Shown here: piece after piece, positions 41,072-45,210 of the stretch | How positions within the stretch are numbered: the stretch's first letter is position 1 | Layout of the letters: the number at the start of each line of letters is the position of its first letter | Assembly: GCF_900113615.1 (NCBI RefSeq) | Contig: NZ_FOPZ01000022.1 | Location: 1 to 56,363, forward strand | Length of the DNA stretch: 56,363 nucleotides | Direction of reading: 5' to 3' | From: Halorubrum aquaticum | GTDB taxonomy: Archaea; Halobacteriota; Halobacteria; Halobacteriales; Haloferacaceae | Position numbers and translations under genes: made by a program | The notes under the pieces: model-generated | Seen by the model: the letters and a program-made list of their open reading frames with translations, nothing else | Databases searched by the model: none | What the model was told of the DNA's origin: nothing

Positions 41072-42322
41072 ATGCAACGGAAGACGGCCGCGGTCGCCCT
41101 GCTCCTCGTCGTCGGGGCGGGGCTGGTCCTCTCGGGGGTCCTCGGCGGGACCGCCCAGCAGCCGGGGCCCGGTGAAGTCCCCGAGGAGTCCCTGATCGCG
41201 GTCGAGGGCGACCACGAGCTGTGGCCGTACACGAGCCGACGCCGGTCGGTGTACGGACAGACGCTCGCGATCAACGTCGTGTTCCTGAACGACGCCGAGA
41301 CGGTCGAGCGGGCGCTCACCGCGGATCCGGAGACGGACTGGCAGGAGACGAACGCCTCGGAGGAGACGGACGAGTTCGGGCAGGGATACGGCGGCGACGA
41401 CGGGGCGGATCGAGTCTCGGAGACCCGCGACGGCAACGGGTCGGACCCCGTACGGGACATCGTCGAGGGCAACTGGGAGACCGCCACCGGGTCCGACCGG
41501 TACTCCTACTTCAGGGGACCCGACGGCGGCGTGTGGAAGGGCGTCACCTTCGAGGTCCACGACGGGACGTACCTCGGGACGCGCGACCACGTTCGGGCGT
41601 ACGAGTCCCCCGACGGCGAGTACACCGCGGTACAGGTCCACGAGGAGTACTACGACTGGTTCCGCCTGCGTCACACCGTCCCGAGCATCGACGAGCCGGC
41701 CACCCGGCTGGAGGACGAGTTCATCGACAACCCCACCGCCGCGGTGGTGAGCCGGGAGTACCGCGGGATCGACGGCGGCTGGAGCGACGGGTGGCTGTCG
41801 GTGATCGAACTCACGCTCCTGCTCCCGACGGTCGGAGCGCTCCTCAGCCGGCGAACCCGCGAGGCGGTCGCGGAGACGGCGAGGCGGCTACGCCGGGAGG
41901 CCGACCGCCACGCGAGCGACGTGGTCCTCGCCGTCGCACTCGCGGGGGTGTTCGTTTCGATCCGGCACGCGGGAGTCGCCCTGGAGGTCGCGTATCCCAC
42001 CCTCCCGCCGAAGGCGATCGCCGCGCCGCTGTACCTCGTCATCGCCGTCGGGCTGCCCGCGCTCGTCGTCTCCGGGACCGAACGGTCGGACCCGACCGCC
42101 GCGTTCCTCGCCGTCGTGCTGGGGCTCGGTGCCGGATTCGTCCTCGATTTCGCCGCGCTCGGCGTGGCGGTACCGCCCGGACTGATCGTTCACCGCGTGG
42201 CGGTCCTCGCCGCGCTCGGACTGGTCGCCGTGGGTCGGGCCACGACCGACCGTTCGGTTCTCGTCGCCGGCGCGCTCGCGTGGGTCCTCGGACTGGCGCT
42301 CCCGCTCGCGGACGTGATCTGA
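41072..42322 (+). CDS. Membrane protein with LssY-C-like exported domain
   Basis: This 416-residue protein has an N-terminal signal or anchor (about 5-27) and an extracytoplasmic domain to about residue 245. The domain has INVVFLNDAETVERAL, YSYFRGPDGGVWKG and YLGTRDHVRAYESPDGEYT...DWFRLRHTV, similar in layout to LssY C-terminal domains. About six to seven helices follow. In bacteria LssY-C domains occur with PAP2 phosphatases, and a PAP2 gene lies 2 kb downstream. The precise role is unknown. GCTTTTATT (41040-41048) gives leaderless spacing for ATG 41072. Confidence 0.55.
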   Translation: MQRKTAAVALLLVVGAGLVLSGVLGGTAQQPGPGEVPEESLIAVEGDHELWPYTSRRRSVYGQTLAINVVFLNDAETVERALTADPETDWQETNASEETDEFGQGYGGDDGADRVSETRDGNGSDPVRDIVEGNWETATGSDRYSYFRGPDGGVWKGVTFEVHDGTYLGTRDHVRAYESPDGEYTAVQVHEEYYDWFRLRHTVPSIDEPATRLEDEFIDNPTAAVVSREYRGIDGGWSDGWLSVIELTLLLPTVGALLSRRTREAVAETARRLRREADRHASDVVLAVALAGVFVSIRHAGVALEVAYPTLPPKAIAAPLYLVIAVGLPALVVSGTERSDPTAAFLAVVLGLGAGFVLDFAALGVAVPPGLIVHRVAVLAALGLVAVGRATTDRSVLVAGALAWVLGLALPLADVI

Positions 42323-42421: not shown

Positions 42422-44305
42422 ATGACGCGACGGATCAGTCGGCGCGGCGCGCTCGCGGGGATCGGTCTCGCGGTCGGGAGCGCCGGCTGTGCCGGGCGGG
42501 CCCGGAACATCGCCGGCCGCGAGGGCTCCTCACAGCTCGTGTTGGAGATCCGGACCACGCCGGCCGACGAGGACCCGAACGGTATCCGGATCGCGCGGGC
42601 GCTCGCGGAGAACCTGGACGCGGTCGGGATCGACGCGCGGGTCGAGACGATGAACGGGACCGACCTCCACCGGACGGTACTCCTCAACCACGACTTCGAC
42701 GTGTACGTCGGCCAGTACACCGAGGTGCTCCCGTTCGATCCCGACGTGCTCTACGGGCTCACTCACTCGCGGTTCACCGCCGAGGCGGGGTGGCAGAACC
42801 CGTTCGGATTCACCGACCTCGACGTCGACGAGCTCCTCGAGAAGCAACGGGCCGCGGGCGGCCCCGATCGGTCCGAGGTCGTCTCGGAGCTCCAGCGGTC
42901 GGTGTGTGAAAAACAGCCGTTCACCGTCGTCGCGTTCCCGGACGCGCTCGCGGCGGCGCGAACGGACCGGTTCGTCGGCTGGGAGACGGGACCGCCGATC
43001 TCGGCGAGCGGGCTACTCGGCATGGACTACGTCGACGAGGGGACGGAGGACGACGGCGAGCCGGTCACCCTCCGTCTCGCGACCACCGACGGACGCATCT
43101 CCGTGAACCGGAACCCGATCGCGGCGGAGTATCGCCGGTACGGGACGTTCATGTCGATGCTGTACGACCGGCTCGCGATCGCCGACGACGGGACCTCGGT
43201 CCCGTGGCTCGCCCGCGGGTGGGAGTGGCTCGGGCCGGAAACGCTCGAACTCGAACTGCGGGAGTCGACGTGGCACGACGGCGAGCCGTTGACCGCGGCG
43301 GACGTCGCGTTCACGTACGCCTTCCTCCGGGACACCTCGATGGGGAACGCGGAGACGCCGGTTCCGGCCCCGCAGTTCCGCGGACGCGGGTCGATCGTGG
43401 AGTCGGCGCTCCCCGTCGACGACTCGACCGTCCGACTGGTCGTCGACGAGACCGACGAGGCCGTGGCCGAGCGGGCGCTTCAGGTCCCGATACTGCCGAA
43501 ACACGTCTGGAGCGAGCGGGCCGAACCGGCGACCGTCGGCGGCTTCGAGTTCGACATCGAGACCACGGAGGCGCTCGTCACGGCCAACGAGAAGCCCGTC
43601 GGGAGCGGCCCGGTACGGTTCGTCGAATCGACCCCCGGCGAGCGGGTCGTCTTCGAGCGAAACCCCGACCACTTCCTCGCTCGCGACGGATCGGCCGACG
43701 CCGAGAGCGTCGATGACGGTGTGAGTGCCGAGGACGCAGGGAGCGACGGGGACCGGACCGACTCGACGGCCGAGACCGGGGGCGGGAGATCGCTCCCGGA
43801 ACGGTTCCTGGGGAAGCCGGCGTTCGACCGGCTCGAGGTCGCGGTCGTCGGATCGGACGTCGAGGCGGTACAGTGGGTCGCGGACGGGTACGCCGACGGG
43901 ACGGCCTCGAACCTCGGGCCCGACTCCGTTCCACGGATCGGTCGCGAGAGCGACACCCGTCTCGTGAGCACGCGGTCGGCCGCGTTCTACTACGTGGGGT
44001 ACAACGCGCGACGCGCGCCGCTCTCGAACCCGCGGTTCCGCGGGATCGTCGCGTCGCTTCTGGACAAGGCGACGGTCGTCGACGACGCGTTCGCCGGGTA
44101 CGCTCGGCCCGCGAGTTCCCCGCTCGCCGCCTCGACCGAGTGGGTTCCCGATGACCTCGAATGGGACGCCGACCGCGACGCGGACCCCGTACACCCGTTC
44201 CGCGGGGAGGACGGATCGGTCGACGTGGCGGAAGCGCGCGAGGCGTTGCGGGAGATCGGTTACCGGTTCGACGAGTCCGACAGGCTGCTCGCACGGGATC
44301 AATGA
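42422..44305 (+). CDS. SBP_bac_5-type substrate-binding lipoprotein, circularly permuted
   Basis: This 627-residue protein has a Tat lipoprotein signal (RRISRRGALAGIGLAVGSAGC, Cys23). The usual order of the peptide-binding-protein fold is inverted. Residues about 38-187 match what is normally the C-terminal lobe (IARALAENLDAVGIDARVET, DFDVYVGQYTEVLPFDPD, DVDELLEKQRAAG, ALAAARTDRFVGWE). From about 214 the normal N-terminal sequence begins (VTLRLATTDG, PWLARGWEWL, STWHDGEPLTAADVAFTYA, VPILPKHVWSE, GPVRFVESTPGERVVFERNP). It ends at DVAEAREALREIGYRFDESD, the usual junction. No permease or ATPase lies nearby. Its stop overlaps the PAP2 start. Confidence 0.85.
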   Translation: MTRRISRRGALAGIGLAVGSAGCAGRARNIAGREGSSQLVLEIRTTPADEDPNGIRIARALAENLDAVGIDARVETMNGTDLHRTVLLNHDFDVYVGQYTEVLPFDPDVLYGLTHSRFTAEAGWQNPFGFTDLDVDELLEKQRAAGGPDRSEVVSELQRSVCEKQPFTVVAFPDALAAARTDRFVGWETGPPISASGLLGMDYVDEGTEDDGEPVTLRLATTDGRISVNRNPIAAEYRRYGTFMSMLYDRLAIADDGTSVPWLARGWEWLGPETLELELRESTWHDGEPLTAADVAFTYAFLRDTSMGNAETPVPAPQFRGRGSIVESALPVDDSTVRLVVDETDEAVAERALQVPILPKHVWSERAEPATVGGFEFDIETTEALVTANEKPVGSGPVRFVESTPGERVVFERNPDHFLARDGSADAESVDDGVSAEDAGSDGDRTDSTAETGGGRSLPERFLGKPAFDRLEVAVVGSDVEAVQWVADGYADGTASNLGPDSVPRIGRESDTRLVSTRSAAFYYVGYNARRAPLSNPRFRGIVASLLDKATVVDDAFAGYARPASSPLAASTEWVPDDLEWDADRDADPVHPFRGEDGSVDVAEAREALREIGYRFDESDRLLARDQ

Positions 44306-45210
44306 ATCCGCTCCTGCCGGTCGTCACGAGCGTCCTGTTCTGGGTGGCCGCGATGTGTCTCGTTGCGGGGGTCGCCATCGTCGGCCCGCGGCGGCTGTAC
44401 GGGGTGGGCGGGAACCTCGTCCCGTATCTGCGCGAGTCGCGTCGGGAGGTCGCCGTCCTGCTCGTCGTGCTCGTCGTGAGCGGGGTCGGTCGGCCCGCGC
44501 TCCAGTCGGTCTCGGAGGTGTTCGGCCTGCGGCTGACCGGTGCCATCCTCGCGCTCGAGGGCGACTTCGTCGCGTGGCTTCAGGGGAACTTCCAGAGCCC
44601 ACGGCTGACGCTGTACTTCTCGTCGATCTACGTGTTCGGGTACGCGTTCCTGCTCGTGTTCCCGTTCATCGCGTACGCGGCGCTCCCGAGGTCGACGACC
44701 CTGAAGCGGCTGATCGTGGCGTACACGCTCAACTACGCGCTCGGGCTCGTGTTGTACACCGTCGTGTTGGCGTACGGTCCGCGAAACGTGATGCCCGACG
44801 CCGTGACCTCGCTTCTGTACACGTTCAACCCGAACTTCCAGACGCTCACCGGGGAGGTGAACGTCGAGACGAACGTGTTCCCTTCGCTTCACACCTCACT
44901 GTCCGTGACGGTCGCGACCTTCGCCGCGCTCACCCGCGAGGAGTATCCCGCGTGGACGCCGATCGCCTGGTGGATCGCCGGCTCAGTGGTCGTCTCGACG
45001 ATGTACCTCGGGATCCACTGGCTCACGGACGTGGTCTTCGGGACCGCGCTCGCGCTCGGCTGCGTGTACGCCGCCTACCGGTACGTGGACCCGGACGAGG
45101 AGGACGGATCCGACGGCACGGAACCGGACGACGGGGAATCCGATGACGGGGAATCCGACGACGCGGAACCCGACGAAACGGAACCCGAAAGCTGGGAGAC
45201 GAACGCCTGA
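44302..45210 (+). CDS. PAP2-family membrane phosphatase / phosphotransferase
   Basis: This 302-residue protein has about six helices. The active-site motifs are VFPSLHTSLSV and TMYLGIHWLTDVVFG (PSxHxx and HxxxD), closest to the inositol-phosphoceramide-synthase-like PAP2 subgroup. It may dephosphorylate or transfer a head group to or from lipid or polyprenyl phosphates. The start (ATG 44302) overlaps the SBP stop (ATGA), coupling the two. The acidic tail is built from a short tandem repeat. Confidence 0.82.
   Translation: MNPLLPVVTSVLFWVAAMCLVAGVAIVGPRRLYGVGGNLVPYLRESRREVAVLLVVLVVSGVGRPALQSVSEVFGLRLTGAILALEGDFVAWLQGNFQSPRLTLYFSSIYVFGYAFLLVFPFIAYAALPRSTTLKRLIVAYTLNYALGLVLYTVVLAYGPRNVMPDAVTSLLYTFNPNFQTLTGEVNVETNVFPSLHTSLSVTVATFAALTREEYPAWTPIAWWIAGSVVVSTMYLGIHWLTDVVFGTALALGCVYAAYRYVDPDEEDGSDGTEPDDGESDDGESDDAEPDETEPESWETNA
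45119..45191 (+). repeat. Tandem repeat encoding the acidic PAP2 tail
   Basis: Imperfect units such as GACGGGGAATCCGAT and CGCGGAACCCGACG encode the run around DDGESDDGESDDAEPDETEP at the C-terminus of the PAP2 protein. Confidence 0.7.

Follow-up and report, generated by a model that had tools for sequence, protein, structure and literature searches.

Within the cluster C substrate-binding proteins (SBPs) of the Opp/Dpp/AppA type (Pfam SBP_bac_5, PF00496), MppA of Escherichia coli lacks a permease of its own and shares OppBCDF, and the mycobacterial lipoprotein LpqW, rather than being part of a transporter, acts as a factor in lipid-linked glycan synthesis. We know of no coupling of LpqW to a PAP2 protein. 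The nearest precedent for the protein described here belongs to another SBP class: in TpMglB-2 (Tp0684) of Treponema pallidum, a cluster B SBP, circular permutation has occurred naturally; a "cluster Bc" was proposed for it, and the authors suggested an advantage in tethering (PMC4990184).

The window analysed in this study, a stretch of 56,363 nucleotides from Halorubrum aquaticum (contig NZ_FOPZ01000022.1), encodes an SBP of the same family as the canonical cluster C proteins, as judged from Pfam and PDB sequence matches, but with a rotated chain order. Similar to TpMglB-2, the permutation lies within one SBP class and is common to many relatives; unlike it, TpMglB-2 is a sugar-binding protein whose C-terminus carries what were the first three N-lobe strands (PMC4990184), and the two events are unrelated. 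LpqW shares the OppA-like fold of the window protein but has the canonical order. MppA likewise has no permease of its own but differs in its canonical order, its use of OppBCDF, and the absence of a PAP2 partner. A description of a permuted SBP_bac_5 protein was not found in the open-licence literature (wider absence is unproven), and none of the PDB matches listed had its chain in the permuted order.

Domain order of the window protein

The open reading frame (ORF) started with ATG and encoded 627 amino acids without internal stops. The features of the locus were as follows:

41072..42322, + strand: upstream gene, membrane-anchored (predicted by eye), conserved next to the SBP within the genus and also in certain other families
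42422..44305, + strand: circularly permuted SBP_bac_5 lipoprotein, 627 amino acids (Pfam, rotation, and structural model)
42422..42490, + strand: Tat-type signal and lipobox (MTRRISRRGALAGIGLAVGSAGC) with predicted lipidated Cys23 (sequence pattern)
42533..43036, + strand: moved block, residues 38 to approximately 205, corresponding to the C-terminal third of canonical proteins (Pfam profile positions 287–364; fold of the block alone)
43019..43057, + strand: junction of the old C-terminus and old N-terminus, residues approximately 200–212 (alignment; low pLDDT at model residues approximately 181–190)
43058..44302, + strand: old N-terminal two thirds, residues 213–627 (match to AppA and DppA structures)
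43691..43783, + strand: acidic low-confidence insertion, residues 424–454, variable within the genus (pLDDT below 50; alignment)
44302..45210, + strand: PAP2_3 membrane phosphatase or transferase (PF14378, 57.5 bits; motifs), overlapping the SBP stop

Analysis with the SBP_bac_5 profile gave 147 bits (curated cut-off 32.4) and two matches in swapped order, with profile positions 3–279 on residues 260–615 and positions 287–364 on residues 38 to approximately 117. When the protein was rotated by hand, a single match over profile positions 3–364 was obtained and the score rose to 159.2 bits. The cut lay near profile position 287/288, with the old termini joined. The cut point was also scanned over all possible start points using an HMM built from non-haloarchaeal canonical relatives. 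The native order scored 212.6 bits (HMM positions 5–314), while restarting the protein anywhere in residues 200–224 gave 285.3 bits (positions 5–465 of 474). A canonical protein from the same genome (L040), used as a control, peaked at its own native start, and three other permuted proteins behaved in the scan like the window protein. The cut point was shared by most SBP_bac_5 paralogs of the window genome and by permuted relatives in haloarchaea and bacteria. The original prediction had placed the last quarter of a peptide-binding protein at the front; the swap was borne out, with the moved block running to approximately residue 205 rather than 187. At the other end, the chain stopped as predicted where the moved block would normally start, with the helix AREALREIGY followed by a short tail and the stop codon.

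In terms of three HMM blocks, the order of the window protein was C-N-M instead of the canonical N-M-C, and it was therefore classified as a permuted variant rather than as a canonical cluster C member. The junction differed in length among aligned relatives: some had a short connection, others a long acidic linker. Pattern matching identified an RR motif together with a lipobox; the TIGR01409 TAT model scored below its cut-off on the window protein, and no NCBIfam equivalog exceeded its cut-off for the permuted proteins.

Predicted structure

The protein was modelled with AlphaFold2 from an alignment of 28 permuted relatives (model residue 1 corresponds to protein residue 25), which resulted in a pLDDT of 85.3 and a pTM of 0.85. 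Model residues of approximately 189–603 superposed on residues 17–358 of AppA (1xoc) with Z 22.0 and rmsd 3.2 over 332 aligned residues (VIA-align), and the same part, about protein residues 210–627, matched DppA residues 1–346 with Z 19.6. The moved block was left unaligned in the structure search with the full model, as expected from a sequential aligner. Folded alone, it matched residues 343–507 of DppA (1dpp; Z 9.3, rmsd 6.0, 161 aligned) and 359–520 of AppA (Z 9.2, rmsd 5.7, 159 aligned), the superpositions of the block alone having an rmsd of 4–7 Å overall. The two parts of the chain thus tiled DppA and AppA with ranges that met nearly without gap or overlap, and NikZ structures were likewise matched by both parts. 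Residues 38 to approximately 205 hence fold like the C-terminal third of canonical members.

The better rotated alignment, the fitting model, the fold of the block, and the abundance of homologs (see below) agreed with one another, and neither of the outcomes named beforehand as contradicting a permutation, i.e., rotation without improvement or an unrelated fold at the N-terminal end, was observed. The claim of a circular permutation within the SBP_bac_5 family consequently held, and the window protein is confirmed as an SBP_bac_5 (OppA/DppA, cluster C) lipoprotein in which the last third stands first.

We take the cut site to lie inside lobe II of DppA and both canonical termini to lie in lobe I. 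On the predicted fold, the chain would have been reopened inside lobe II while the old ends, in lobe I, were joined, so that lobe I would be continuous and lobe II would be assembled from both chain ends. The N-terminal lipid anchor would thereby shift from lobe I to lobe II, with the cleft and the docking face retained.

Distribution of the permuted form

Homologs in the same order, which the original prediction proposed to search for, were abundant in many haloarchaeal genomes and occurred in some bacteria. Classification by the three blocks yielded 142 permuted and 78 canonical ORFs, and none in any other order. In the window genome, five of the six SBP_bac_5 proteins were permuted, and across ten haloarchaeal genomes approximately 21 of 50 were, ranging from none (two genomes) to 6 of 7, as judged mainly by the end point of the Pfam match. 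Among bacteria, the permuted form was present in at least 8 of 101 genomes of the Aliihoeflea family, at least 1 of 249 genomes of the Aliihoeflea phylum (the query's own genome), at least 10 of 101 genomes of the phylum that includes Trueperaceae, and at least 4 of 118 genomes of the phylum to which a Desulfobacteraceae bin belongs; these minimum fractions vary with the query and the threshold used. Permuted SBP_bac_5 proteins are an old subclass, spread across haloarchaea and sporadic in bacteria. The paralogs and the other phyla with the same order ruled out a one-off in the window protein.

An accidental fusion, an assembly error, or an unrelated domain in the place of the moved block would be the trivial explanations for the unusual order; nothing was found in their favour. 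Since the identical order recurred across many genomes of several phyla and the block folds like the canonical C-terminal third, we consider the chance that any of these applies to be negligible; assembly error, coincidence, and an unrelated domain were ruled out by the homologs, the rotation scan, and the model of the block.

Almost all haloarchaeal permuted relatives carried an RR motif and a lipobox, while the bacterial members mostly had plain signal peptides without a lipobox. This difference bears on the proposal made for TpMglB-2 (PMC4990184) that the permuted order is adaptive for a lipid-tethered protein. The near-universal lipobox of the haloarchaeal permuted members would fit such a cause, but the bacterial members without one weaken it, and the canonical haloarchaeal SBP L040 carries a lipobox as well, making tethering an improbable origin of the permuted order.

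Genomic context and possible function

The permuted paralogs in the window genome were located in Dpp/Opp operons that also encoded two BPD_transp_1 permeases together with ATPases matching ABC_tran and oligo_HPY, as assigned by Pfam for ten genes and by similarity for the remainder. Most bacterial permuted genes were followed by a DppB homolog, and a few had an ATPase gene or nothing in the short stretch covered. Because permuted relatives outside the window family mostly adjoin Dpp-type permeases, the permuted form very probably works in transport, as part of ordinary importers.

The window protein itself had no adjacent ABC genes and was coupled to a PAP2 phosphatase, both as originally predicted: its stop codon and the start of the PAP2 gene overlapped by 4 bp (ATGA, 44302–44305), an arrangement that was usual within the genus. 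The PAP2 motifs YGPRN, FPSLHTSLS, and TMYLGIHWLTDV were largely conserved in 11 aligned proteins, including the catalytic motifs PSxH (FPSLH) and HxxxD (GIHW..D, with AIHW in one protein). For 63 of the 67 window-family ORFs, a PAP2 homolog lay no more than 1.5 kb away and in the same orientation; loci overlapped between searches, so that fewer than 67 cases are independent. Two of the four ORFs without it (L037 and L056) were cut by the locus ends, and two (L052 and L055) were real exceptions. Outside the family, PAP2 stood beside no permuted ORF except L054, which the tree placed as a divergent family member. The coupling spanned many haloarchaeal families.

In Natrinema-type genomes (L046, L047, L092, and L094–L097), two permuted SBP genes flanked a single phosphatase gene in the order SBP-PAP2-SBP. 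The gene upstream of the window SBP (41072–42322) gave no Pfam or NCBIfam match and was also located beside the SBP in L049, L093, L098, and L099. By eye, we consider it a candidate relative of the LssY C-terminal domain, a domain associated with some PAP2 proteins.

A comparison of SBP and DppB numbers in five genomes (6/5, 7/6, 5/4, 3/2, and 5/4) revealed that every DppB adjoined another SBP, the window-family SBP being the one left over. All five DppB genes of the window genome stood beside other SBPs, and a dedicated permease for the window SBP was absent among them. The window protein could work as a conventional transport SBP by using the permease of a different Dpp operon, with PAP2 as a mere neighbour or a supplier of ligand. 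The complete cluster C fold in the model and the five Dpp systems of the window genome are in line with this; the PAP2 coupling in 63 of 67 ORFs, often with the 4-bp overlap and over many haloarchaeal families, argues against it, as does the retention of the protein in genomes with very different permease sets. We regard a shared permease as somewhat unlikely.

By guilt by association, we tentatively favour a role in which the window protein serves or regulates the PAP2_3 enzyme rather than a dedicated importer. The window protein belongs to a haloarchaeal branch that lacks its own permease and became fixed beside the PAP2_3 enzyme; it probably binds a ligand outside the membrane and may in this way serve or regulate an enzyme of lipid phosphates. 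The acidic residue that precedes the DPD motif in the C block, which we take to hold the peptide N-terminus in DppA, was apparently not kept in the window family, where HPGxxDPD or QYTEVLPFDPD occurs at this stretch; its seeming loss would make a classical peptide ligand slightly less likely. LpqW (PDB 2grv) matched the window model with Z 19.7 (residues 213–627 on chain residues 25–391) and, by analogy, appears to be best read as a precedent for an accessory of an enzyme outside transport. More speculatively, and with some doubt on our part, the PAP2-coupled permuted SBPs as a group might serve no ABC importer at all; together with the PAP2_3 enzyme they would make up a unit that acts as a lipid-phosphate phosphatase or head-group transferase under ligand control at the outer face of the haloarchaeal membrane.

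Origin of the permutation

A quick tree was built from 110 sequences after rotation. It united 51 of the 52 permuted sequences in one clade (SH-aLRT 96), whose neighbours were canonical proteins from Chloroflexota, Actinomycetota, and methanogens. The remaining permuted sequence, L032 (with L220 as a near-copy), was placed among canonical haloarchaeal proteins in both quick trees, which is what would be expected if the permutation had two origins at nearly one position, one in the large clade and the other in this haloarchaeal lineage. Its branch was long (1.67 changes per column), and forcing all permuted sequences together lowered the fit by just 6.3 log units (AU test on 59 rows, p-AU 0.346), a result by which a single origin is neither rejected nor proved. 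We consider two origins rather unlikely and a single, old event probable.

L032, L043 (region of G000:C21:23263-24129), and L220 each encoded a very divergent permuted SBP at the head of a Dpp operon, and a second permutation event is possible for these three.

The permuted gene probably arose when an Opp/Dpp-type gene was duplicated in tandem and the copies were fused and trimmed. A 1259-amino-acid ORF in an alphaproteobacterial bin (L160:5785-9564) contained two tandem canonical SBP_bac_5 units in the order N-M-C-N-M-C, and a haloarchaeal open frame of 1582 amino acids with two SBP_bac_5 matches was observed at G037:C1:2362605-2365421 (L221 and L228); tandem canonical ORFs of this kind represent the type of intermediate that such a route would need. 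The account as a whole, i.e., a permuted cluster C lipoprotein derived from an old and probably single event, with a PAP2_3-coupled branch that lacks a permease, is in our judgement likely to be correct.

Significance

With these results, one of the largest SBP families gains a subclass in which the chain is circularly permuted. The permuted form constitutes the majority in some haloarchaea and is located beside Dpp permeases in bacteria too, while automatic annotation hides the permutation because Pfam just reports two stretches. Natural pairs in which a permuted and a canonical SBP go with similar permeases would allow the effects of topology, anchor position, and folding order on binding and docking to be tested. 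For the haloarchaea, the window family points to a conserved SBP-PAP2 unit.
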